The notes beneath the pieces are model-generated. The model worked only from the letters and a program-made list of their open reading frames with translations. It searched no databases and was not told where the DNA came from. Below, piece by piece: positions 671 to 26,866 of a DNA stretch of 26,866 nucleotides. Position 1 is the first letter of the stretch; every line of letters starts with the position of its first letter. Both the position numbers and the translations under genes were made by a program. Origin of the DNA: a bacterium (GTDB lineage Bacteria > Dependentiae > Babeliae > Babeliales > RVW-14); the NCBI GenBank assembly GCA_010027825.1, contig RGUK01000012.1:1-26866 (forward strand), given 5' to 3'.

Positions 671-3475
671 TTAGACCACCAAGTGCAGCTCAATGTTATT
701 GAGCGGCGCCGGAACCGAAATGGCTAGCACAATTTCAATCCGGTCTTTGAGCAGCGGGTGCAAACGCAAAACTTTAAGCGTTGCCCCGGTTATCGGCGCG
801 CCGAGCTCATTTGTATACACTTTTGTCAACAAATACCGCGCCGTGTCGCCAATTACGCCGCCCAGCAAATTAACCATACTCTGAGACGCGTTTGTCCGCC
901 CGATGTACGGCCGTAAAGTCCGCAAGAACAAGTAAGAAATAGCGTCAACGTTACGCCGAATAGACTCTTCCTTGTGGTTCACGTCGAGCGTGCTGGTCGT
1001 GAGCGCTTGCCGAGTATACGGCGTGCCCGTATTCGACTGCGTTACGATCCACGTGCCGGCCGCAGCAATGATGTTCAGCTGCGTCTCGTTAAAGTACTTG
1101 TACGACCGCGTGTAGTCGTCAAACCCGGCAACTTCGACGTTTGTCAGCGGCTGGTGCCCCAACACGCCAGAAGCCAACCCGGCCAACGCCGCAGCCAAAT
1201 AATAGCCCGGCTGAACTGTGCCGGCCTCGCCAACCTCGTCGGGCCAAACAGCGCAGATCCGCCGATTTGCCAGCGACCCAACCTGCGTCGCAATATCCTC
1301 GGCGATCTCCGTCCGCGTGCGCTCGTGATAAATCTCAACGCGCTGCGGCACCGTAACGGGCGCGTCCTCACCGCTGTACAAGAGCAGTGTGTTCTCCGAC
1401 AGCACACGGTCGACAACGTACTCTTCGTACGCCTGAGCGTTGAAGCCGTCGACAGCGAAGTTGTAACGGACTTTATCGCCGGGCTGCACGTTATTCGTAA
1501 TGAAATAACCGTTGCCAGACGTAACCTGCAGCTTCGTGTACTGCGTGCCGGTCGCCGCGGGATCGTCACCCAGCGTAGCGAGCACTTCAGCCGTCACAGT
1601 ATTGTCAGCAACGCCGCCGATCGTCACGCCCTTGCCGACCACCTGCGCAACCGGGCGGGCCTTTACCGCAACAAAGCCGCCCTTCCAATTGTCGGCAATC
1701 TCGTTCGATTCCGAATTAATGTGCGCGGCCCACAGGTCGATCACCTTGCGATCGAACGTAAGCGGCACAAGATTGTAAATATCGTCGCGGCCCTTGATGC
1801 GTTCCAGCACATAAGCCCAGCTGTCCAAGCTGTCCGGGTTGGCTACGGCGGTGTATTTCACAGAAATGCCGTTGCTGTTCGTAAGCGCCTTGTAAACGCC
1901 CCACTTCAGCGGATTGTCCGGATCGAGTTGGCCCGCAATCAGATCCAAATTCGCAACGGAATCCAGCGTGCCAACCTCGTCGGTCAGCGCGGTCAGCCAC
2001 TCGCGGTATTCGACGTACGCCGTGCCGCTGTAAACATTTAACGGCTGCTGCACACCGTTGGCCGTCCAACTCGGGTGATACGCCACCGCGCCTTCCTGCA
2101 AGCACAGCTGTGTGGCTTCTGTGTAATAGTTCGTTAACGGCGCGAAGCCAAGCCGGTTTTTTGTCAACGTAATGTTGTCTTTGATGTAAAACTCTACGTT
2201 GATGTGATTCGACGAGCCACGCATCGCGACCGGGAGGTCGTCCTGCAGGTAAATTTCATTGGCCGAGCCGGCAGCCGAAGCAACGCACGTGATGTACCAC
2301 TTATCGCCTTTGCGCAGCCCAAGGCCGTTGAAACTTACTTTGACGCCCTTGGTGCCGACGACAACCGCAGTAGCCGCGGCAGACACCGTGGTCGGGCCGG
2401 AAAAGTCGAGACCCTTGGCTGTCGTGACGCTGATCTCAGGAAGATCGGCAAACAGGCCGCCCTTGGTGCAAGTGACGATATAAACATCGTCGTTCGCGCC
2501 GGTGTAACCATTAAGCAGGTCAGTCGTCCCGACCGCAGTTGTGAAACTGGCGGCGGAGGCCGTAGCGTTTACGGCATCGAAGGCTTGCGATACAACCGCG
2601 CGCCACTTCTGGCCAATTGTTAACTTTGTTTGATCGTCAAACGTCACAGTCAACCCGCGGGTGCCGATCGTCGCAACGTTCGTAACGGGAATTACCTCGT
2701 CAACGTCGTCGGAGCCGCTGGCCGAGAGTACGCGAAGCACCGCAGAGTCGCAGCCCACCACCGCGCTCCGAACCACCTCAAAAGTGTACTCTTCGTTAAT
2801 GTAGCCCGAGGCCCAGCCGTTATAAGCCGTTCCAACGGTCACCACCGGCGCTGTGGCCGCGTCGCCGGTTACGAGCGTTACCGTGTGTGTGCTCGCGGTT
2901 GTCGCCTGATTTGTGCTGGCCGCCACCGCCGTCTTGATGCGCGAAGCAACCTTCTCGCTGCCGAACCCCGTGATGGTGGTCCACAGTTCGGTTTCCGCGC
3001 AATCGCCCGGGCGAATGTACGTCGCACGAACTACGTCGCCAACCTTTACGTCGCGATCGTTGAGTACGGCGCTCCGGGGATAAGCCGCGCCGTTCGACTT
3101 AAGCGCCAAAAAGCTCGACTTAAGTACGTTGTTTTCAGCCCGGTCGGCCGGATCTGTGAAATAAACAGCCGCGCCTGAGTTGCTGGTTGTGTCCGTCGCG
3201 GTGTTGTAATACTGCAGCAGCGCGCCGTCGATAAATACTTTCGTGTAGGTATCGTCGACGCGGGAGCCGGCGGTGCGCTGCGGCCACGCGTAAAACGTAT
3301 CGTGCAGCCGGTTATATTCGCCCAGCTTGGTGTAAGGTTTTTCGTCAACGTTGGTGTAGCGGTGCAGCACAGCCTGCGGGCCGGCAATATGCGCGCGCAA
3401 AGGAGAAGCAAACTCCGTCGGCGCAGCAGTGAAATCCTGGAAAACGAGTACTTGCGGCTTTACGTAGTCGGCCAT
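671..3475 (-). CDS. Tail sheath protein with large inserted domains
   Basis: This is the contractile sheath subunit, which surrounds the tail tube and shortens during infection. The C-terminal third (about 740-934) carries the sheath-type pattern: a long YYLAAALAGLASG helix, a region of regular strands, then LRPYIGRTNASQS and a last strand pair ending IELHLVV. The N-terminus (MADYVKPQVLVFQDF) fits the strand sheath proteins donate to neighbours. At 934 residues it is much longer than T4 gp18 (659). The extra length includes two tandem, mutually similar segments at about 215-300 and 318-402, each with a Gly-rich tyrosine start, an IGTRG/VGTKG turn and a GQKW/GDKW end. The start has AGGAG nine bases upstream. 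It follows the tail-terminator candidate and precedes the tube gene. Confidence 0.88.
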   Translation of the reverse strand: MADYVKPQVLVFQDFTAAPTEFASPLRAHIAGPQAVLHRYTNVDEKPYTKLGEYNRLHDTFYAWPQRTAGSRVDDTYTKVFIDGALLQYYNTATDTTSNSGAAVYFTDPADRAENNVLKSSFLALKSNGAAYPRSAVLNDRDVKVGDVVRATYIRPGDCAETELWTTITGFGSEKVASRIKTAVAASTNQATTASTHTVTLVTGDAATAPVVTVGTAYNGWASGYINEEYTFEVVRSAVVGCDSAVLRVLSASGSDDVDEVIPVTNVATIGTRGLTVTFDDQTKLTIGQKWRAVVSQAFDAVNATASAASFTTAVGTTDLLNGYTGANDDVYIVTCTKGGLFADLPEISVTTAKGLDFSGPTTVSAAATAVVVGTKGVKVSFNGLGLRKGDKWYITCVASAAGSANEIYLQDDLPVAMRGSSNHINVEFYIKDNITLTKNRLGFAPLTNYYTEATQLCLQEGAVAYHPSWTANGVQQPLNVYSGTAYVEYREWLTALTDEVGTLDSVANLDLIAGQLDPDNPLKWGVYKALTNSNGISVKYTAVANPDSLDSWAYVLERIKGRDDIYNLVPLTFDRKVIDLWAAHINSESNEIADNWKGGFVAVKARPVAQVVGKGVTIGGVADNTVTAEVLATLGDDPAATGTQYTKLQVTSGNGYFITNNVQPGDKVRYNFAVDGFNAQAYEEYVVDRVLSENTLLLYSGEDAPVTVPQRVEIYHERTRTEIAEDIATQVGSLANRRICAVWPDEVGEAGTVQPGYYLAAALAGLASGVLGHQPLTNVEVAGFDDYTRSYKYFNETQLNIIAAAGTWIVTQSNTGTPYTRQALTTSTLDVNHKEESIRRNVDAISYLFLRTLRPYIGRTNASQSMVNLLGGVIGDTARYLLTKVYTNELGAPITGATLKVLRLHPLLKDRIEIVLAISVPAPLNNIELHLVV

Positions 3476-4413: not shown

Positions 4414-5628
4414 TTAAATATTCCAAAAATCTTCTACTGCTTTAGTCGGTTTTGGGCTAGGCGGCGGGGCGATTTGAATTGGTGCAACGGGAACTACAGT
4501 CAGCGGTTTTAAATCGGGTCCGTATTCGCCAAGTTTTTCGTAAAGTACGCTGTAAGTCCCGGCAAATAGTTTTAACGCCAACCCCCAGCGCCCGTTCGCC
4601 ACCGTTGACGTTTGCGCCACAGCTAAATCACGATTTGGCAAACTGGGCGCCGCGGCATCGACATCAGCTTGCTTAAATACATAAACATTGGCGCCTTCTA
4701 CCGCGTAACCCGTGGCGTCAATATAAGCCAAACTATCATCCCCGCCGTAGTTTGAATCAACAATAATGTCGCCGCAGCCTTCTACGCTTTCTATCGGCCT
4801 AGGATCTCTATGCGCCGGCTCTCCGCCCACTTCAATGTTGTATACCGTATTGTTAAACGGCAACAAGCCCATCGTCACCTCATAGACAACCGGAACATTT
4901 CGAATCGTGGCGGCTACTTTAATTTGGTCAATTACCCAGCGCTCGTCGGTTGAGCCGTTTACCCAAATATCGCGTTTACTCAGCGCCGGGAAGCCGATCA
5001 CCCGGGCTGTCGTATAAGCGTTTTCCCGTGTAGCCCCTTTAACTTCAGTATCTACGCGTTCAGCATTAACCGTTGGCGCTAAATCCCAGCATTGAAGCGC
5101 AAGCGGCGGATGATAGCCAACTTCAAAACCCGTCCCCGCACATATTTTGCAGTTGTCATCCGTCACTTCTTGTGTCAACTCATCGCGGCAACGAGAACAC
5201 GGTTTTCCGTAGCGGTATTGCTTAATTAAATAACCCGGCACCGAAACAAGCCGGTGCCGAAGCTGCTCTTTGCGAATAATTTCTCGGCTTAATAACCAAT
5301 CGCGCTCCGTTAATTCACCTAAGCAGTTTGCCGCCTGTGAAACGTAAATATTATCCGGCGTCGTAAGCGTAACGCGATAATGAGTTAATAAATCCATTCC
5401 GCCTTCGCGCCATCCCGGGTCTAACGCGAAATAGCCGTTTGTAACCGGGTCGCCTACGTTTTGCCAATCAACAGCGGATTTAATTGGCGTATATCCGTAC
5501 TGTAATTGAAATACGTACGGCCCGGGCTCGCGGAATTGGGACTCTAGCTGCCACCACACTCGCGTTACGCCGCGAACCATGTGGTCTACAGAAATGCGGC
5601 GGAACGGATAAATGCGTTCTTGACTCAT
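4414..5628 (-). CDS. Neck/virion structural protein with zinc knuckle and Ig-like C-terminus
   Basis: The 404-residue protein carries a four-cysteine knuckle, CSRC at 144-147 and CKIC at 160-163 followed by AGTGF, which should bind one zinc ion. I associate this CxxC-x12-CxxC-GTGF arrangement with neck or head-tail region virion proteins of large myoviruses. Residues 1-125 are Trp- and Tyr-rich and beta-like. Residues about 300-378 (DATGYAVEGANVYVF, then NGRWGLALKLFAGTYSVLYE) form a carboxypeptidase-regulatory or CnaB-like beta-sandwich repeat. The tail is Pro-rich. There is no Shine-Dalgarno before the ATG, but a perfect TATAAT lies six bases upstream, so the mRNA may be leaderless. It is the first gene of the tail unit after the noncoding RNA region. 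Confidence 0.6.
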   Translation of the reverse strand: MSQERIYPFRRISVDHMVRGVTRVWWQLESQFREPGPYVFQLQYGYTPIKSAVDWQNVGDPVTNGYFALDPGWREGGMDLLTHYRVTLTTPDNIYVSQAANCLGELTERDWLLSREIIRKEQLRHRLVSVPGYLIKQYRYGKPCSRCRDELTQEVTDDNCKICAGTGFEVGYHPPLALQCWDLAPTVNAERVDTEVKGATRENAYTTARVIGFPALSKRDIWVNGSTDERWVIDQIKVAATIRNVPVVYEVTMGLLPFNNTVYNIEVGGEPAHRDPRPIESVEGCGDIIVDSNYGGDDSLAYIDATGYAVEGANVYVFKQADVDAAAPSLPNRDLAVAQTSTVANGRWGLALKLFAGTYSVLYEKLGEYGPDLKPLTVVPVAPIQIAPPPSPKPTKAVEDFWNI

Positions 5629-5634
5629 GGTTTA

Positions 5635-5663
5635 ATTATATCGCCGGACCTCTGATACCTAAA
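5635..5663 (-). promoter_or_regulatory. Candidate leaderless promoter for the 4414-5628 gene
   Basis: On the minus strand a perfect TATAAT (5640-5635) ends six bases before the ATG at 5628, and a weak -35 (TTTAGG, three of six matches) sits 17 bases upstream at 5663-5658. The predicted transcript start falls on or next to the ATG, which agrees with the absence of any Shine-Dalgarno. The -35 overlaps the U-run of the preceding terminator hairpin, so one unit ends and the next begins here. Confidence 0.4.
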
Positions 5664-5705
5664 AAAAGCGGGGGCCTACGTACTATGTCCGTAGGTCCCC
5701 GCTTT
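5661..5705 (-). terminator. Strong hairpin with U-run; also possible first helix of the plus-strand RNA
   Basis: Positions 5665-5680 and 5690-5705 form a 16-pair stem around a 9-nt loop. Read on the minus strand it is followed by seven T, a textbook intrinsic terminator placed just before the tail gene unit. On the plus strand one position pairs as G-U (5674 with 5696), while on the minus strand it is a C-A mismatch. The same stem could therefore also cap the 5-prime end of the plus-strand structured RNA. The plus strand has only three T after the stem. Confidence 0.7.
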
Positions 5706-6118
5706 GCCCCGACCACGAAATTACTCGCGTGGTCGGGCTCAGTGCTTGCCGGCCGAGACGGCAATACCCGTGAGGGAGTGCACTGAGAAAACGTGCCGCA
5801 ACCAATCGGCGGGGAGCGGCTGGCGAAAGCCTAGACGGACAACCGTCAGGCGACTTGGCATCGAGGGTTACCGGCGGCGCAACCGATTCTATTGCCGCCG
5901 GGCCGATCGATGACGAACAGCACGGGTCCCGCAAATATTACAGCGTCGATTCGAAAGCTCGACGTTCGCTGTTTCCAAATGCTTTTGACCCTGTGGCACG
6001 CTGTTCCGTGCCAGTCCGCGTTACGCCTGTGCAAGTAGGCGTTTCAAAGCCGACCGCGGCGGCTATGATCAGCTTTTGCTTCCGACAGCTCGACGACGTA
6101 CGCAGGGACCGCTGATTA
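5665..6118 (+). ncRNA. Putative large structured noncoding RNA, family unrecognised
   Basis: No plausible gene lies here on either strand, but consecutive perfect stems fill it: CCCGACCACG/CGTGGTCGGG (5708-5717/5728-5737); a three-way junction closed by CTCAGTGC/GCACTGAG (5738-5745/5780-5787) holding TTGCCG/CGGCAA and CCC-GTGA-GGG; GGC-GAAA-GCC (5822-5831); GACGG/CCGTC (5834-5847); CATCGA/TCGATG (5859-5864/5907-5912) enclosing CCGGCGGC/GCCGCCGG (5871-5878/5894-5901); CGTCGA/TCGACG (5944-5964); TGGCACG/CGTGCCA (5994-6013); ACGCCTGT-GCAA-GTAGGCGT (6023-6042); AGCCG/CGGCT (6048-6064); ATCAGC/GCTGAT (6068-6073/6111-6116). Three hairpins end in GNRA loops (GUGA, GAAA, GCAA) only on the plus strand, and G-U pairs extend helices only on that strand (6029/6036, 6030/6035, 6067/6117). 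The RNA would therefore run opposite to its neighbours. RNase P, tmRNA, tRNA and intron signatures are not visible. GOLLD- or ROOL-type phage RNAs are possible relatives I cannot test. Ends are approximate. Confidence 0.7.
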
Positions 6119-6138
6119 GGCGCTGCGTAGAAGTTTTT

Positions 6139-6178
6139 AAAACTGCACTGGCTCCCTCCTTTAAAGAGCCTGCGTGCA
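6139..6178 (-). terminator. Terminator after the VWA gene
   Basis: On the minus strand, six bases after the stop of the VWA gene, TGCAC-GCA-GGCTC pairs with GAGCC-A-GTGCA around a 11-nt loop and is followed by GTTTTAAAAAC. This gives a moderate intrinsic terminator closing the three-gene cassette and separating it from the structured RNA region. The loop contains an AGGAGG sequence, but no usable start follows it. Confidence 0.55.
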
Positions 6179-6183
6179 CGTCG

Positions 6184-7620
6184 TCAGCTGTCTTTGAGGC
6201 CCAGTTTGAACCCCTCCATCATGCTCGGCCTGTCGACACAGCCGCGCACGACGGTAACCTTTTCTTTTGCCGCCGGCGCCCACGGCACCGACAGCATGGC
6301 AGCGGGCGAACCAATTTCCGGCGACCGAAATTTAACTCGGCTCGGATGATTGTGCAGCCAGATCAGCCGCTTAATCTTGGTTATATCCGCGAGCTGCCGA
6401 TACAGCAGTTCGCCGTCGTTGTCGCCAATGATCACGACGGCTTTAATCAACCACGTGCTGGCGCCCGTGGTGACCTGCTCGAACAGCGGAGAGATTTTCC
6501 GGAGTTCGGTCAGCTCAATCGCCGGCCGACCATTGAACCACGGAATGAACTCCACCTCCGACTCCACACAGCCGTTGCTGTGCGGGCAGACCAGCACGTC
6601 AGAGCCAGACACGCCGGCGTAGCCAGCCGCGTTTGCGATGTCGCACGCGGCTTTCGCCGTGCGTGCGCACGACGGGGAAATGTCCGGCAGAAACAACGTC
6701 ACCGGTCGACCGGTCACGCTGTCTTCTTTAAAGGCATTTCCCAACGGCCGGCGGGCCAGTTTCCGGGTCACAATCTTTTTGGCGCTCAAGATTGGAATTG
6801 GCCCGGACTGCCCGCCCGACGAACCCGCCGCGATAAGCAGGTTAATCAGCTCTGCCATTTTCTGGCGGAGCGCGGAGTCGACGCGTTCAAGCCGGGCCTC
6901 GGCGCCGGCAATTTGACCGCGAGCAACCCCGGAAACCTGCCCGGCCGCGTTTAACGACGACCGCGCGCGCTGCGCATCGCGACGAGCTTGGCGGGCCCGC
7001 TTGACAGCGTTTTGCGCGGCGCGGGCCTCCGGCGAACGCCCGCGACCGGGGCTTTCGCTTTTAGCCTGCTGCTCGGCGTTAGCTGCCCGAGCGGCTTCAA
7101 GCTGCCGCTCTGCCGCGTTCACCTTTTCGGCTGCCGCTTTTTGTTCGGCGGCCTTAATTGCCTCGGCGACGCCGCCCGGCTGCGGCTGGCCGTTAGGCTC
7201 GCCGCCCGGCGACTCCTGCTCGGAGACATTATCCCCGGAAGCTTCGCCAGAAGCCTCGCCGGAGGCCTCGCCCGGTTCGCCTGCCGAGTTGGGCTCAGCG
7301 GGCTGCCGGTCTTGCGATGCTTGCCCGCTGCCGTACAGCTCGGACAACTTTGTGCCCGCCCCGTACACCCCGGCGAAACTATCAATCATTCCGCCGGCGT
7401 CCTCGCGCGCCTGATCGCATCGCGAGCAGGGGCAAGACCGGCGAAAACAACCCGCCGACAACACGCAATTGCGGTCCTCGCGGAGCTGTGCGCCAAACAT
7501 CCAGTCGGCAAACAGATTTAACTCCGTTTGCTCCGCGGGCGACTTGGTCTCCACAAACGCCCCCGGCTTGCGGCGAGAAACCGCAAGCAACTTCTGCAAG
7601 TCTCGCAGCGTAAGTGCCAC
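6184..7620 (-). CDS. VWA-domain protein, partner of the MoxR-type ATPase
   Basis: The 478-residue protein ends in a von Willebrand factor A-like domain. TLFLPDISPSC contains the DxSxS metal-site motif (Asp313), and AVVIIGDNDGELL supplies a later acidic strand end, so binding of a divalent metal is likely. The N-terminal region carries a cysteine cluster at about 52-68 (C-x5-C-x4-C-x-C-x2-C) that could hold zinc or an Fe-S cluster. A low-complexity acidic Gly/Pro/Glu stretch with three EASG repeats follows, then a long Ala/Arg/Gln-rich helical segment. I place the start at the GTG at 7620, with AAGGAG seven bases upstream, rather than the longer frame from 7698 that crosses a perfect hairpin. 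MoxR ATPases commonly act on such VWA partners in chaperone or metal-insertion complexes. The substrate here is unknown. The gene ends the cassette. Confidence 0.7.
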   Translation of the reverse strand: MALTLRDLQKLLAVSRRKPGAFVETKSPAEQTELNLFADWMFGAQLREDRNCVLSAGCFRRSCPCSRCDQAREDAGGMIDSFAGVYGAGTKLSELYGSGQASQDRQPAEPNSAGEPGEASGEASGEASGDNVSEQESPGGEPNGQPQPGGVAEAIKAAEQKAAAEKVNAAERQLEAARAANAEQQAKSESPGRGRSPEARAAQNAVKRARQARRDAQRARSSLNAAGQVSGVARGQIAGAEARLERVDSALRQKMAELINLLIAAGSSGGQSGPIPILSAKKIVTRKLARRPLGNAFKEDSVTGRPVTLFLPDISPSCARTAKAACDIANAAGYAGVSGSDVLVCPHSNGCVESEVEFIPWFNGRPAIELTELRKISPLFEQVTTGASTWLIKAVVIIGDNDGELLYRQLADITKIKRLIWLHNHPSRVKFRSPEIGSPAAMLSVPWAPAAKEKVTVVRGCVDRPSMMEGFKLGLKDS

Positions 7621-7652
7621 TGCGGCTCTCCTTTCCGGCCGGCGTAGTCGTA

Positions 7653-7687
7653 GGGGGCGCGACCCCGCCGTAATAGGTCGCGCCCCC
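7653..7687 (-). other. Perfect 12-bp stem-loop between the ATPase and VWA genes
   Basis: GGGGGCGCGACC (7653-7664) is perfectly complementary to GGTCGCGCCCCC (7676-7687) with an 11-nt loop, in the 74-nt gap between the two genes. There is no U-run on either strand, so it is not a normal intrinsic terminator. It could be an RNA-processing or stability element that sets different levels of ATPase and VWA protein, or a partial terminator. Confidence 0.6.
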
Positions 7688-7694
7688 GTAAGCA

Positions 7695-8513
7695 TCACCG
7701 CCGGAATTCCGCATACAACGCGGATCCCGGCTGCCGCACGAGCTTTTGAATCGCTGCGCGGTCTTTGTCGCTCTTCACGAGAAACCCCTCGATCAGAGCG
7801 TCCACGTCGTCGGGTGACTTTGCCAGTCCGCGCGTCCGCAGGAGTTCCCGCAACTCCTGCAGACTGGGCCGAGACTCACCGCCAGTGCGCACGGCGTTAG
7901 CCATGCGCACCGCAAGTCGACAGGCGCCGCCCGGCGCACCCGTCGACTTCCGAAGAACGTCGATTTCGACGTTCTCCGGAAGAAACTGCATTTTCACGCG
8001 GAAGCAACGCCTTTTGATGGCGTCGGAGAGGTCGCCTTCCTCGTTGGCGGTGAGCACAACGAAGAGCTTCCTCAGGTCCGCCTGATGGAAGTTATGCCGA
8101 GCGTCCGGCACTCTTCCGTGCTGGAGGAAATCGAGAATTAATGCGTAGAACCGCGTTCCAGCCTTCTCGACTTCATCCAGCACCAGAACTACCTCGCGGT
8201 GCTTTGTGGCCTTGACAGCCTTGAGCACCTGCCCGTCGAGGTAGGCCTCGTCGGGGTGGGTGACGCCGACCGCCACGCGGCCGATGTCGACACCCTGGTT
8301 GACCTCTTCGTTGGTCAACCAGGAGTGGCACGGCACGAAGATGTGCTGCGCCTGCCGGCCGCGGGCAAAACATTCCGCGAAGAATGTCTTGCCCGTTCCG
8401 GGATCCCCCACCAACAGCGCCGCACGCAGCGTGTCAGTGATGAGCGCCAGGAACTTGGCCGCGAGGGTCTCCCCCCGCCGGGCAAAATAGCCCGGCAACT
8501 CCGCAACTTCCAC
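7695..8513 (-). CDS. MoxR-type AAA+ ATPase
   Basis: A 272-residue single-domain AAA+ ATPase. Walker A is GDPGTGKT (residues 36-43), Walker B is VVLVLDE with acidic Asp113/Glu114, sensor 1 is the Asn in VVLTANEEG, and an arginine pair in SDAIKRRCF is positioned as the finger contacting the neighbouring subunit's nucleotide. Compact size, no extra domains, and pairing with a VWA gene immediately downstream point to the MoxR branch, whose hexamers remodel protein complexes through VWA adaptors. Two GTG starts are possible. The first (8519) lies inside the Shine-Dalgarno GGAGGTGATC, so the second (8513) is preferred. Nine to fifteen bases separate it from the upstream gene, indicating co-translation. 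MoxR-like ATPases occur in phages, but I do not know one fixed in the neck gene block. Confidence 0.85.
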   Translation of the reverse strand: MEVAELPGYFARRGETLAAKFLALITDTLRAALLVGDPGTGKTFFAECFARGRQAQHIFVPCHSWLTNEEVNQGVDIGRVAVGVTHPDEAYLDGQVLKAVKATKHREVVLVLDEVEKAGTRFYALILDFLQHGRVPDARHNFHQADLRKLFVVLTANEEGDLSDAIKRRCFRVKMQFLPENVEIDVLRKSTGAPGGACRLAVRMANAVRTGGESRPSLQELRELLRTRGLAKSPDDVDALIEGFLVKSDKDRAAIQKLVRQPGSALYAEFRR

Positions 8514-8528
8514 GATCACCTCCAGTGG

Positions 8529-9023
8529 CTAGTTGTTACTGAACTTCGGCCAACAATCCCCGCCGCCGTCGGGCTTCTCGCCCTCGTTTTCGGGTTTGGC
8601 CGACTCGCCGCCCTGCTCCGCGGTTGCCGCCAAACCCTCCTCGAACAATTCTTCGGCGACGTACTCGAAATCGACGCCGGTCTCCAAGAAAGCTGTCAGC
8701 GCCGCGTTGATCAGCGGCAACGACATCCGCAGCTGGTCAGCCAGCGGCTTTGTTCGGGGCATTTTCTCCAACGTGCGGCCGGCCTGCACGAGCTCCTTGC
8801 TCGCGGTCATCAGGCAGCTGGCCACAACCATCCTGGCCCACATAGCCAGCGCCTCCTTGGCCGCGGCCACGTCCTTTTCGGACGTGGCCCACTCGACGCC
8901 GAGCCGCACACGCGTCGCTTCGATCTCGTCGAACGGGACCGGTTCCCCGGCCCTTCGCCGCGCCTTGACGTTTTCGATCATCCGGTCTCGGATGAACTTC
9001 GTGCCGGAATCAACAGCCTTCAT
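8529..9023 (-). CDS. Unknown protein, first gene of the MoxR-VWA cassette
   Basis: I do not recognise this 164-residue protein. It starts with a good Shine-Dalgarno (AGGAG seven bases before the ATG) and its stop lies just before the ATPase start, so the two are probably translated together. Residues 1-130 are predicted mostly helical and charged, with an amphipathic segment around AKEALAMWARMVVASCL and repeated leucines after it. The last 30 residues are an acidic, Gly/Glu/Pro-rich disordered tail ending CWPKFSNN. No signal peptide or membrane segment is visible. By position it may be the third component or substrate adaptor of the ATPase-VWA complex, but nothing in the sequence shows this directly. 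Confidence 0.6.
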   Translation of the reverse strand: MKAVDSGTKFIRDRMIENVKARRRAGEPVPFDEIEATRVRLGVEWATSEKDVAAAKEALAMWARMVVASCLMTASKELVQAGRTLEKMPRTKPLADQLRMSLPLINAALTAFLETGVDFEYVAEELFEEGLAATAEQGGESAKPENEGEKPDGGGDCWPKFSNN

Positions 9024-9125
9024 TTATCAACTCCTGCGTAAGAATGAATTGAACACCAGAGGACCAATAAATATGCCCTAATTTTTGCGAATATTTAGTA
9101 CTCAGCCGCCAGCCCGGTAAAACGC

Positions 9126-11091: not shown

Positions 11092-12018
11092 TCACAGGAA
11101 ATCAACACGAGCCAGACCGTTCGTATGACCGAACGAGCCGCCCTGCGTGTTGTACGCAAAGTACTCAAGCATGAACGCCTCGCGACGGATGTACATCGTG
11201 GTGGGCTCAAGCTCGTAGTTCTTGCCGATAAACTTCGGCGATGCAAACATAAACAGCGAATCGTCGGGCACAAGGTCCCGCTTGATCGTGACAATCCAGC
11301 GGCAGTTGAGGAAGTTGGCTTCCGCCCAGCCGTTCTTGATGATGTCCTGCGAAAAGTCACCGCCCATTTCGTCGCGGCCGAACTTCAGGAGCTCCTTGAT
11401 CGTGATGTTATTCACGAGGCAAGTCTCAACCTCGAAGTGCGACGGAGTCCGGGGCATAATCTTCAGGGCGTCAACCAGCGTCTCGCGGGTGATGCCGCCG
11501 TAGATCTGCTCGTACTGCACCGCGCCGCTCGCCACGTTCGCGACACCCGGAGTGGGCAGCACGGCGTTAAAGGCGGCAATAAACTTGCCGTCCTCTTCCG
11601 CCAGCATGTCCTTGATCATGTTGTCGCTGAGAACCTGACGAATGTCGATCACGTACGTACGCAGCTCGTCGACGTCTTTCACAGCGCGGGGCGACACGAT
11701 CCGGTCAAACATGACGCGGTAGCGCGGGCCACGGATGTAAAAGTTGATCGGGAGCGTCGCGAACGGAAGCGACACAGCCGCCGGGGAATCGGGTTCCTTG
11801 TCGACAATCTTAACCGGCTTGTCGGTATCGACCTGCCGATCGAGTTCGTCGTTGGTGATGGTCAGCGGCGGCATAATCCGCCGATAAAACCCATCTTCAC
11901 GCATCTTGGTGCGCGTGAAATCGTTAACCGCGTCGATCGCCTGCTTCTGCATGCCAGGCGTATCAAGCTGCTCGAACAGAGTCTCGTTCAGCAGCTGAAT
12001 TTCTTGCTGAGTCGGCAT
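11092..12018 (-). CDS. Major capsid protein (HK97-like fold)
   Basis: The 308-residue protein is the best match in the window for the major capsid subunit. It is preceded by protease and scaffold-like genes, has a very strong Shine-Dalgarno (GGAGGTTTTACA-ATG), and its codon usage is GC-rich and regular, as for highly expressed genes. Residues about 1-55 are helical and charged, like the arm region. A central helix (VDELRTYVIDIRQVLSDNMI) may be the spine helix. The end has the P-domain strand series (IVTIKRDLVPDDSLFMFA, then IGKNYELE) and finishes FGHTNGLARVDFL, a pattern seen in many tailed-phage capsid proteins. There is no obvious N-terminal scaffold domain. Confidence 0.8.
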   Translation of the reverse strand: MPTQQEIQLLNETLFEQLDTPGMQKQAIDAVNDFTRTKMREDGFYRRIMPPLTITNDELDRQVDTDKPVKIVDKEPDSPAAVSLPFATLPINFYIRGPRYRVMFDRIVSPRAVKDVDELRTYVIDIRQVLSDNMIKDMLAEEDGKFIAAFNAVLPTPGVANVASGAVQYEQIYGGITRETLVDALKIMPRTPSHFEVETCLVNNITIKELLKFGRDEMGGDFSQDIIKNGWAEANFLNCRWIVTIKRDLVPDDSLFMFASPKFIGKNYELEPTTMYIRREAFMLEYFAYNTQGGSFGHTNGLARVDFL

Positions 12019-19642: not shown

Positions 19643-21694
19643 TTAACCAAATAACGCCAGCATTACGCCAAGCGAAGATCCGCTACTACCCGCCGGCCCG
19701 GTTGCGCCGGTAATACCAACGCCAGTTGCGCCCTGCGGCCCTGTGGCCCCAGTGCTTCCAACACCCGTTGCGCCAATCGCGCCTGCTACGCCCTGCGGGC
19801 CTTGCGGGCCTGACACGCCTTGCAAGCCGGTCGCGCCGGTAATACCAACGCCCGTTGCGCCAGGGTTACCCTGCAGCCCAACCGAACCCTGCGGGCCTTG
19901 CGGACCTGTAGCGCCCGTAACTCCTTGCGGGCCTAGCGGACCTGTTGGCCCGGTAAACCCGGTCGGGCCGGCGACACCAGTTGCGCCCTGCGGGCCGGTG
20001 GCGCCCGTAATACCCTGCGGACCTGTAACGCCTTGAAGCCCTGTCGCGCCCTGACCGCCGGTTCCGCCAGTTAAACCAGTCACGCCTTGTGGTCCGGTCG
20101 GGCCAGTGGGTCCGGTCGCGCCCTGCGCGCCTGTATTGCCAGTTAAACCAGTAACGCCAGTTGCGCCGCGCAACCCCGTAGCGCCAATTGCGCCGGCCAC
20201 ACCTTGCACACCTTGTAGGCCGGTTGCGCCAGTGGCTCCCGCGGAGCCCACAGGGCCGGTAGGCCCTGTGGGCCCGGTTGACCCAGTAAGCCCTGTCGCG
20301 CCCGTTATTCCGGCGGGCCCGGTCGGGCCAGTCGGCCCTGTTGTGCCCAGAGCGCCAGTAGCCCCGGTCGCGCCGGTTGGCCCAGCAACCCCGGTCGGCC
20401 CTGTTGTGCCGCGCACGCCGGTTGCGCCGGTAACACCAGTCGGGCCTGTCGCGCCGCCCGGCGAACCAGCTGGTCCGGTTGCGCCGGTAACACCAGTCGG
20501 GCCTGTCGCGCCGCCGGGTGTGCCAGCCGCGCCCGTCGCGCCGCGTAAACCAGTTGCGCCGACAAGGCCGGTAGCGCCCGTTATTCCAACGGGTCCGGTC
20601 GGGCCCGTCGGCCCTGTTGTGCCTTTAATCCCTGTAGCGCCGACAACACCAGTGGCGCCGAGCGCGCCCGTGGCTCCAGTAACGCCTACGCCCGTTGCAC
20701 CTTGCGGTCCGGTCGGCCCTGTGGCTCCGGCGACGCCCTGACTTCCACCGACGCCTTGAACGCCTTGCGGCCCTTGAATGCCCTGCGGGCCCTGCACGCC
20801 AACAGAGCCACTAAGGTCAGTTAAATACGAATAATTAGTGCCGTTCCAAATATACAACCGGGCATTATCTGGATTATTTACGTCACCTGTGTCGATAATC
20901 GCAAACTGTCCGACGCTAATGCCCGTCGGCGCGATGTCGGCGGCCAGAGCAGCAATCGAACTATAAATTTTTGTGATCGCAACAGGTGCGCCCTGCAATC
21001 CTTGCGCGCCTTGTAATCCCTGCACACCGGTAGCGCCGGTTAAACCAGTTGGCCCGGCGGGGCCAGTCTCGCCCGTTAAACCAGTAACACCAGAAACGCC
21101 GGTCGGCCCTTGTGGCCCCGTAGAGCCAATATCGCCTTTCGGCCCGGTAGCGCCGTTATCGCCGACATCGCCTTGCGGCCCGGTTGGACCGGTAGCGCCG
21201 GTATCACCGACATTGCCTTGCGGCCCGGTTGGGCCAATATCGCCTTGAACGCCTGGCAAACCAATTTCGCCTTGCGCGCCCTGCGGCCCTGTCGCGCCCG
21301 TCGCACCGATATCGCCGACCGCGCCGGTAGGGCCTATTAAGCCGGGCACGCCCTGCGGCCCTTGCGGTCCCGTTGCGCCCTGCGGCCCTGTAGCGCCCGC
21401 AATTCCAATTCCAGTTGCGCCAGTTAACCCAGTCGCGCCTTGAATACCCGTAGCGCCAATAGCGCCTTGCGGGCCGGTTGGACCAGTAGTTCCGTACGCG
21501 ACCGAACCACCGCCGCCACCCGGACTAAAAACTATAATTCCGTCGTCTTTTCCGACGTAAATTTTTTCTTGATCTACGTCAAGGACAACGTCGCCGCGCC
21601 GAAGATCGGTCGGCGGGCCGTCTGTGTCGTTAGTCGTTTGCCGGCGCCGCGTAGGAAACCGTAAAAAATTGAATATCCGCGTAAAATACGGCAC
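19643..21694 (-). CDS. Collagen-like virion fibre protein
   Basis: The 683-residue protein is built from Gly-X-Y triplets, mostly [12 protein letters not shown] and GLT. Residues about 68-236 (some 56 triplets) and 299-672 (some 125) are collagen-like and should form trimeric rods. A globular break at 237-298 ([19 protein letters not shown], then [19 protein letters not shown]) separates them. The first 67 residues have a short basic start and a small beta region ([19 protein letters not shown]), and the end ([11 protein letters not shown]) is hydrophobic. The start is GTG with GGGGGA upstream. Such proteins serve as fibres or capsid decorations in phages. The position beside head genes rather than baseplate genes leaves either possible. 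Confidence 0.85.
19679..20800 (-). repeat. Collagen-coding 9-nt periodic repeat, block 2
   Basis: About 1.1 kb with strict 9-nt periodicity (GGN-NNN-NNN triplets on the minus strand) encoding the longer Gly-X-Y block. Imperfect 27- to 63-nt units recur, which makes recombination and length variation likely. On the plus strand the same stretch gives a long proline-rich shadow frame. Confidence 0.85.
20987..21493 (-). repeat. Collagen-coding 9-nt periodic repeat, block 1
   Basis: About 0.5 kb of the same 9-nt periodicity, encoding the shorter Gly-X-Y block before the globular break. Near-copies such as the QGDVG/QGNVG units lie 60-63 nt apart (around 21150-21240), showing growth by tandem duplication. 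Confidence 0.8.
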
Positions 21695-24964: not shown

Positions 24965-26866
24965 CTATTTTTGCGATTTCCAACCGCTAACCGCCCCCGA
25001 CAGCCCGAAGGTTTCACCACGCGCCAGCGCGGGCACATAGCTGCTGCCAGATTCGCTACTAGTTAAACCGCGCTGTACGCTGTTCATTAAACCTTTTTCT
25101 TGATATGACCCGAGCATGCGCGTCAGCCAGTCTTGATCGTTGGAAATGCTGGCCATGCCGCGCACCATTTCAGGCGCAAACGGCGGCGCTTCTTTATGGG
25201 CTTGCACGGACTTGATGCCGTATTTGTTTAAATTGTTAACAACGCTTTTGCCGATTTTCGTGCCGATAGAATAATGCAACACGGGCTGTTCGAGATAGTG
25301 CCCAACGAGCGAATTAGGCGCGCCCATTACTGTGCCGGAACGCGGTTGCCAACTCTGCTCTAACACAGAATACGGCACAATGTCGTCCGGTACGTAATCT
25401 CCGTACTCGTCGGTCATTCGGACGTGATTTACAATACCGCGAGCCAGCAATTCAATGTTGCGCCGATGCGGATTCATGCCGCTGTTTTGCATGACTTGTC
25501 GCATCGCTTGCGTAAAATACCGGCGGCCCTCGCCGACACCTTTATGCCGTACAATTTCGGCCGGGCTGGGCATGCCGTCAGAAATAGCGTCGCCGGCTTC
25601 TATCGCATCTCCTTTTTTTACCGTCACTTGCCGCGTAATAGGCACGTAATGATCGGCGGAGTTGATTTGCACGTACCAACCGCCTTGCGGGGCCGGACGT
25701 ACATCCTGCACCGACCCGTCTAATTGGGCGTGAGTAGCGCCGTCGGGGTATTTCTTAGGCACCTGTACAAGAGCGTTTAAAGCTTTAAACCCAGAAATTG
25801 AATTAGCGCCGCCGACACCGCCTGAGTGTTTAGAACTCAACTGTCCCTGCGAAACCGGTTCAGACAGCGCCTGCGTAGCGGCCACTCCGACATAATCCCC
25901 AATAGGTGGGAGCCGATTTTTTTCGCGATAGCCGGCGTCTTTGGCGTACACACCGCCGTCGGGCGGACCGCCCGTAATCGGGCTGCGGACTAAAATATGT
26001 TGAATGCCCGAACTTTTCATGTCGCGCAAAATTTTAGGCGTCAATACCGTATTGCGTTTGTATGACCCGGCGTCACGAGCGAGTAAAGCGCCTTCGTTAT
26101 CGGCGTCGTCGACATCGGTCGGGAACCCGCGATCGTGTGCCGTTTTGAGCCGGTCAGCATCTGTTTCGTCTTCCGCGGTGACCAAAAGCCGGTGCGCCAT
26201 TTGCGTTAATTGTTTTCCGTAAAAGCCAGCGTCTGCGGTCGCTGTCTTTGTGTCGATTACACCTTTGCGCGCCCCGAAACTAGCCGCAAAATATTCGGCA
26301 GGTGTAAGGCCGGCGCCGTAGCTATTCAACACGGGCACGGGAATCGGCTCGTTGCGGTGATCGACGTATTGCAGGTCCGCGCCAATTAATGAGTTCAATG
26401 AGTACTTATTGCCCACACCCGCGCCAATAATTTGATGCGCCAGCGGATTGTCTTGTTCCAGCGCCTCGTTGTAAACATTCTCGACAAGCGTTGATTGCGC
26501 AGAGGCAGCGGCGCGCATAATTTTGGCCTGCCGCTGCTCGCTAGTTAACGACTTATCGGACAAAATACCGCGTAATTGCGACCTAAATTCCAATTTCGCT
26601 TTTTGCGCCGCCAACGACGTTTTAATATCTTTTAACCCAAACGAGAGCCCGTTTGTTGTATACGCGGCATCACGGGACACGTCGTGCAGCTGCTTCATAA
26701 CATCCCGATACTGCTCGGGATGTTTTTTTGCGAGCTCGGTGGCCAAAGCCGCCGTTGTTTTTTTGTTCAGCACACGATCGTAATCGCGCAGATCCGCCGG
26801 GAGGGCGTTATTAATTAACAACTGCCCAAGCGTTGTTTTTAACATGCCGCACCGCGCAGTTATTTT
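24965..26866 (-). CDS. RNA polymerase beta-prime subunit, C-terminal half (partial at window edge)
   Basis: This aligns by eye with the second half of bacterial beta-prime. Counting from the ATG at 26845: TTLGQLLI (4-11) matches the TTVGRALLW region after the catalytic Asp loop; 138-172 corresponds to the bridge helix and following strand; EYFAASFGARKGVIDT (184-199) matches YFISTHGARKGLADT; GVAATQALSEP (320-330) and QGQLSSKHSGG (333-343) form the trigger loop, with His340 and Gln333 equivalent to E. coli His936 and Gln929. TRQVTVKKGDAIEAGDAISDG (404-424) and the RRNIELLARGIVNHV helix match the C-terminal jaw/clamp. The second zinc site is lost: no Cys in the VRSPITGGPPDGGVY region. There is no stop between the ATG and the window edge and no Shine-Dalgarno, so the frame probably continues upstream, where the catalytic NADFDGD motif should lie. 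It synthesises RNA with a beta partner; virion packaging is possible. Confidence 0.88.
   Translation of the reverse strand, partial: KITARCGMLKTTLGQLLINNALPADLRDYDRVLNKKTTAALATELAKKHPEQYRDVMKQLHDVSRDAAYTTNGLSFGLKDIKTSLAAQKAKLEFRSQLRGILSDKSLTSEQRQAKIMRAAASAQSTLVENVYNEALEQDNPLAHQIIGAGVGNKYSLNSLIGADLQYVDHRNEPIPVPVLNSYGAGLTPAEYFAASFGARKGVIDTKTATADAGFYGKQLTQMAHRLLVTAEDETDADRLKTAHDRGFPTDVDDADNEGALLARDAGSYKRNTVLTPKILRDMKSSGIQHILVRSPITGGPPDGGVYAKDAGYREKNRLPPIGDYVGVAATQALSEPVSQGQLSSKHSGGVGGANSISGFKALNALVQVPKKYPDGATHAQLDGSVQDVRPAPQGGWYVQINSADHYVPITRQVTVKKGDAIEAGDAISDGMPSPAEIVRHKGVGEGRRYFTQAMRQVMQNSGMNPHRRNIELLARGIVNHVRMTDEYGDYVPDDIVPYSVLEQSWQPRSGTVMGAPNSLVGHYLEQPVLHYSIGTKIGKSVVNNLNKYGIKSVQAHKEAPPFAPEMVRGMASISNDQDWLTRMLGSYQEKGLMNSVQRGLTSSESGSSYVPALARGETFGLSGAVSGWKSQK

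Follow-up and report, generated by a model that had tools for sequence, protein, structure and literature searches.

A conserved structured RNA between two minus-strand genes

Large structured RNAs of bacteria and phages are few and mostly unexplained. A stretch of phage-like DNA of 26,866 nucleotides (nt; contig RGUK01000012.1 of assembly GCA_010027825.1, positions 1 to 26,866, filed under the bacterial lineage Dependentiae; hereafter the window, meaning the whole stretch) raises the question whether the interval between two of its genes encodes such an RNA, from which strand, and to what end. A preliminary description, made from the sequence of the window, had placed here a large structured phage RNA of about 455 nt (5665..6118), outside the known families and on the plus strand, opposite all neighbouring genes. 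Our analysis bears out its position between two minus-strand genes and its standing outside the known families, and reverses its polarity: comparison of nine homologous sequences makes us almost certain that the RNA exists and that it shares the minus strand with its neighbouring genes.

When folded, the region 5640-6140 reached -223.7 kcal/mol on the plus strand (z -6.0) and -224.8 kcal/mol on the minus strand (z -7.0), and in neither case were any of 100 shuffles as good. Since DNA palindromes fold on both strands, homologues were sought to settle the strand. With the downstream gene (4414-5628) and the gene for MoxR (7695-8519) as queries, we reached IMG/VR phage contigs, several of them near 200 kb, which yielded eight distinct relatives of the element: L001, L006, L007, L008, L009, L011, L024 and L075, the last found later by covariance model R1. 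L012 and L013 were judged to be duplicates of L011, and L025 and L026 of L024, from their T-run ends. The element occupies the same site in the relatives, after the gene for a vWA-like protein and before a T-run, and its span from Shine-Dalgarno (SD) sequence to U-run is 502-663 nt over the family. Model R3, built from seven relatives with the window left out, matched the window at 5736-5791 on the minus strand with an E-value of 6.3e-13. Model R2 missed the window, whose P2-P4 region is divergent, and recovered L024, a sequence outside its training set that R1 missed (14.7 bits).

A covariance search of Rfam 15, a check which the preliminary description had proposed, found no family at gathering level for the window or any of the eight relatives; at E<5 the only window match was SorX at chance level (E 0.6), and L009 and L008 gave matches only far below gathering. 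ARAGORN, run on the window and on the relatives' loci, detected no tRNA or tmRNA genes. Neither search matched RNase P, tmRNA, tRNA or introns, of which the preliminary description had seen no signature, and the suggested kinship with GOLLD or ROOL is left unsupported. By these comparisons the RNA is a new class, absent from Rfam 15, although its broad kind, the large structured phage RNA, is already known from ROOL and GOLLD. We found no description of the element in the literature retrieved on large phage RNAs, structured RNA candidates, minigenes, Ro60 in phages, viral MoxR-vWA pairs and short leader open reading frames (ORFs), which does not by itself prove it unpublished, nor in the accessible sections of PMC12286853, PMC7824862, PMC2864571 and PMC8708949. 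No paper came up that couples noncoding RNA with phage MoxR-vWA pairs or with phage multisubunit RNA polymerases. A protein-coding region was also considered and rejected: no single conserved frame shows among the 40 best tblastx matches, which come without exception from two close pairs (L006-L075 and L008-L009), switch frame and are spread over several frames of either strand.

Strand of the RNA

The strand can be read from the way in which paired positions vary among the homologues. In plain MAFFT alignments of seven relatives, eight of the nine pairs of helix P3 show compensatory changes on the minus strand, with 46 Watson-Crick, 9 G-U, 0 A-C and 8 other cells. Helices P8, P8b and P9, compared in seven sequences including the window, have 11 G-U and 0 A-C, and P4 has one of each. 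An A-C on the minus strand would be a G-U on the plus strand, so that counts of G-U without A-C put the RNA on the minus strand. Compensatory changes, which the preliminary description had proposed to look for in homologues, are present, and they go with the minus strand. Shuffles and slides back the pairing; of the five measures, only the count of pair types in P8-P9 performs poorly, with 45 of 500 shuffles reaching it. GNRA-capped hairpins with a stem of at least 4 Watson-Crick pairs number nine on the minus strand (in seven of the nine sequences) and none on the plus strand. The window has none on either strand by this measure, so that the three plus-only GNRA hairpins reported for it are not upheld. 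The SD sequence, a mini-ORF and the U-run all lie on the minus strand in all nine.

Several observations weigh against this assignment. The stems of the window, taken regardless of conservation, lean towards the plus strand (valid G-U pairs: 2 on minus, 5 on plus), and the four plus-strand G-U pairs previously listed (5674/5696, 6029/6036, 6030/6035 and 6067/6117) are present in the sequence. The hairpin at 5665-5703 (P11) is unbroken on the plus strand and has an A-C mismatch on the minus strand; an all-stem count over eight sequences, with conservation ignored, came to 50 to 33 (p 0.08); and P2, P7 and P8 have duplex energies that fail to separate the strands. A plus-strand RNA, antisense to the operon, would also be in keeping with the hairpin at 6099-6129, which is followed by U5 on that strand. 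However, just three of the nine sequences have a T5 run close to the 3' end of the plus strand, and the conserved helices, the GNRA hairpins and the minus-strand mini-ORF and U-run all speak against such an RNA, which we regard as hardly tenable.

Anatomy of the RNA

Read from 5' to 3', the mini-ORF is followed by P1, whose loop takes part in PK1, and then by P2, P3, P4, P5, P6, P7, the P8/P9 domain, P10 and P11. The corresponding features of the window are:

5661..6162, minus: whole RNA element from SD to U-run, 502 nt, homologous with the eight relatives; both ends placed from sequence, the 5' end at 6162 provisionally
6155..6160, minus: Shine-Dalgarno AGGAGG; SD-like sequence ahead of the mini-ORF in nine of nine
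6137..6148, minus: mini-ORF GTG CAG TTT TAA (MQF, stop); 3-5-codon ORF in all nine homologues
6099..6129, minus: hairpin P1, arms 6129-6123 and 6105-6099; arm-swap test, arms hand-picked for complementarity
6111-6116, minus: 5' arm of pseudoknot PK1, within the P1 loop, pairing with 6068..6073
6068..6073, minus: 3' arm of PK1, GCUGAU with AUCAGC
6048..6064, minus: equivalent of helix P2; swap test, in the divergent part missed by R2
6023..6042, minus: equivalent of helix P3; order and complementarity were the sole basis for its assignment in the window
5940..5972, minus: helix P5 with internal motif RACGU/AAWCG, read in nine sequences; swap test
5859..5912, minus: helices P6 and P6b; swap test, P6b listed for 5 sequences only
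5795..5820, minus: helix P7; swap test
5736..5791, minus: most conserved domain, helices P8/P8b/P9; matched by model R3
5708..5737, minus: helix P10; swap test
5661..5703, minus: hairpin P11 and U7 tract, resembling an intrinsic terminator; all nine have a U-run at their minus 3' end, with an interruption in L011

The extent of about 455 nt given earlier proves too short, as the element includes the SD and the mini-ORF (6137-6160) and its minus 3' end lies near 5661. The arms of PK1 are present in all nine sequences, with an arm-swap permutation p of 5e-5 for arms that were hand-picked for complementarity. A terminator scan reported none at P11, where the loop is 9 nt and the loop limit of the scan was 8.

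The mini-ORF consists of ATG or GTG, 2-4 further codons and a stop, and in the window begins 35 nt past the stop of the vWA-like gene. Its SD is AGGAGG in seven sequences, AGGTGG in L001 and GGGAGG in L006. The encoded peptides, each ended by a stop, are MQF, MPFP (in four), MFT, MNFT, MHWPR and MTWP. Among the four MPFP sequences, all differences are synonymous and fall at the third positions of proline codons, so that the peptide seems to be under selection.

The P11 loops are 6-nt palindromes in five of nine sequences (GCUAGC three times, UCAUGA and UCGCGA), CAUAGUA in three and UUU in one. The RNA may dimerise through the palindromic loop, for which five palindromes in nine are only suggestive. 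None of the three RNAs with a CAUAGUA loop (window, L001 and L024) contains its complement, UACUAUG; this sequence does occur in the P8b loop of L075 (1547-1553, minus), an RNA that itself has no CAUAGUA.

Linkage to a MoxR-vWA operon

The RNA is the last element of an operon, after a small gene, a MoxR-type AAA+ ATPase and the vWA-like protein:

9070..9098, minus: promoter-like CTAAATA-N14-GGCATATT of the operon, a sequence motif
8529..9023, minus: small gene that opens the operon; no family found
7695..8519, minus: MoxR-type AAA+ ATPase gene, Pfam AAA_5 (E 4.4e-12)
6184..7698, minus: gene of the vWA-like protein
5635..5661, minus: AG-N-TATCAG element, with the -10 box (TATAAT) of the gene that follows; same layout in relatives

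AAA_5 is a domain carried by MoxR proteins. A Pfam search of the vWA-like protein found no metallopeptidase or other Pfam domain, TROVE included, and in comparisons with TROVE entries nothing but the vWA part aligned. Foldseek gave no match at E<=0.001 for models of this protein, and sequence searches of the PDB gave nothing convincing.

Within the records searched, the RNA is found only beside the MoxR-vWA pair. Among 25 related records, R1 gave one solid match (E 5.6e-16, the next best being 0.02), in the only record with an intact vWA-like gene; another has a vWA-like gene cut at the contig end. The remaining 23 lack the vWA-like gene and, apart from a marginal AAA match in G015 (E 5e-4), any MoxR relative. 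R2, run over 29 records, was solid only in the four that bear the RNA. A P8/P9-core pattern, independent of the proteins and drawn from known members, matched six IMG/VR contigs, all of them RNA-bearing records already known. These linkage searches covered the related records and the IMG/VR pattern, the DNA beside 98 vWA-like proteins lying outside their scope. As many of the related records are fragments, absence of the RNA or a gene from them is not proof.

Wider searches added no member. No relative was found in 50,697 phage records or in plasmid records, and the genome collection gave none by query A2 and 0 matches to the RNA pattern. The AAA proteins of the distant phages L015-L020 are 31-33% identical; in L015, L016 and L017 the sequence beyond the following gene showed no such element, and R1 found none at E<=5 in five of the six (L015, L016, L017, L019 and L020). 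R1 gave nothing at E<0.1 on 80 listed of at least 120 pattern-matching stretches. Weak matches were obtained with R1 in G005 and others (E 0.02) and with R2 in G010 (E 0.001) and G021 (E 0.03). In another pattern search with three matches, two were already known and the third, in L073, was dismissed as chance, since it lies inside a large ORF.

Proposed role and alternative explanations

The conserved RNA as last element of this operon suggests an RNA subunit or scaffold. Our preferred reading as a whole, an operon-borne family of structured RNAs that would be stable structural partners of a MoxR-vWA machine, is one that we would as readily accept as doubt; the function as partner of the pair, taken on its own, is more tentative. 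The operon would be transcribed from the CTAAATA/GGCATATT promoter and end near 5661, with the structured part outliving the mRNA as a stable RNA. Ribosomes would start at the mini-ORF and stop at once, which might shield the 5' border from nucleases or attach the RNA to ribosomes. The folded body would serve the chaperone pair of MoxR and vWA-like protein as an RNA scaffold or co-factor, probably when virions are assembled. In its fullest form, the proposal would give the AAA+/vWA remodelling machine of the phage a large RNA subunit of its own, encoded as the last cistron, loaded with ribosomes at a 3-5-codon ORF and dimeric through a palindromic loop; taken this far, it is speculative and on balance unlikely. 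If true, it would be the first RNA-dependent MoxR-vWA system. Occurrence in only one two-protein chaperone operon offers a concrete protein partner to test, and the peptide-conserving mini-ORF would tie an RNA defined by comparison of nine phage sequences to ribosomes.

The main rival holds that the element belongs to the 3' untranslated region of the MoxR-vWA mRNA, where structure and a ribosome at the mini-ORF would protect the message or tune its expression with no separate function of the RNA. The short distance from the vWA-like stop and the confinement to this operon are both consistent with this, as is the two-codon minigene of axe-txe, which according to the accessible sections of its report acts in cis, possibly by shielding mRNA from an endonuclease (PMC8708949). 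In our judgement, a pseudoknot and about ten helices over 502-663 nt would hardly be needed for protection, and we consider this rival unlikely, if serious. Distinctly less probable is a free-standing, homo-oligomeric ornate RNA without protein partner, its place in the operon being incidental. Its size, pseudoknot, phage origin and palindromic hairpin loops would suit such an RNA, and ROOL, GOLLD and OLE are reported to be RNA-only homo-oligomers (PMC12286853); however, the accessible sections of that paper do not mention an SD mini-ORF for ROOL or GOLLD. The missing Rfam match, the lack of tRNA genes in the loci scanned and the tie to one operon also stand against it.

The SD, the tiny ORF with its Pro-stop end in five of nine, the pseudoknot, the terminator-like end and the gene beyond it might instead form a leader or attenuator, in which translation of the mini-ORF governs read-through of the U-run into the gene at 4414-5628. 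That gene has its own -10 box just ahead of its ATG, in L008 an intervening ORF brings a terminator and a promoter-like module of its own, and the 23 records without vWA-like gene or solid R1 match keep a relative of the downstream gene, all of which makes attenuation very improbable. A self-splicing intron, ribozyme or mobile-element RNA, which would agree with the size and the pseudoknot, is barely credible given the lack of Rfam gathering matches, the same location in nine sequences and a downstream gene that is complete with its own start.

Comparison with known systems

OLE RNA, which is not known to be phage-borne, resembles the new RNA in being large, and no Rfam match connects the two. 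From Ro60/Rsr with Y RNA the present pair differs in that only the vWA part aligned, without TROVE family or ARAGORN match; Y RNA is much smaller than the new RNA. Lambda bar is a minigene, a few-codon ORF with translation signals. The same is true of axe-txe mg2 in the accessible sections of its report (PMC8708949); the mini-ORFs described here differ from both in that the 3-5 codons are followed by a large conserved structured RNA. ROOL and GOLLD are large structured RNAs of phages and prophages of unknown function, ROOL having multiple pseudoknots, and OLE is a dimer in the study cited, as far as its accessible sections go (PMC12286853). The new RNA is like ROOL and GOLLD as a large structured phage RNA, and shares with ROOL the presence of a pseudoknot. 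It differs from them in that it matches no Rfam family, has a 5' SD and mini-ORF and keeps a fixed place in a MoxR-vWA operon. ROOL and GOLLD are often near tRNA islands; ARAGORN found no tRNA genes in the loci scanned here. Viral MoxR-vWA pairs, as in Acidianus two-tailed virus and group 2.2 jumbo phages, have been proposed to act in virion assembly (PMC7824862, accessible sections). They share with the present system an AAA+ and a vWA partner in a virus, whereas here an RNA element is a third part and no metallopeptidase or other Pfam domain was found in the vWA-like protein.

Regulatory motifs and phage context

The promoter-like motif recurs as CTAAATA-N12-22-GCATA in the window (9098, minus), L001, L006, L008, L009, L010, L011, L014 and L024, and possibly serves a phage polymerase. 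An AG-N-TATCAG-like element stands directly after terminator T-runs at operon borders, in the window at 5652-5661 (minus) and elsewhere at L008 5895, L009 5894, L010 4105, L014 5895, L024 2786 and L057 5946. The TATAAT ahead of the gene at 4414-5628 ends 6 nt before its ATG (5626-5640, minus), a leaderless-like start with similar cases in several relatives; a promoter scan reported none at 5635..5661.

A gene resembling RNA polymerase beta' lies at 24965-26845 (minus; RNA_pol_Rpb1_5 E 8.8e-25, rpoC model E 5.9e-52, below cut-off), which suggests that the phage has a multisubunit RNA polymerase of its own. It is probably contractile-tailed, to judge from weak matches to tail sheath (671-3475, minus; phrog_279) and to HK97-type major capsid (11092-12018, minus; NF042927, below cut-off). 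A collagen-repeat tail fibre protein of 683 aa is encoded at 19643-21694 (minus).
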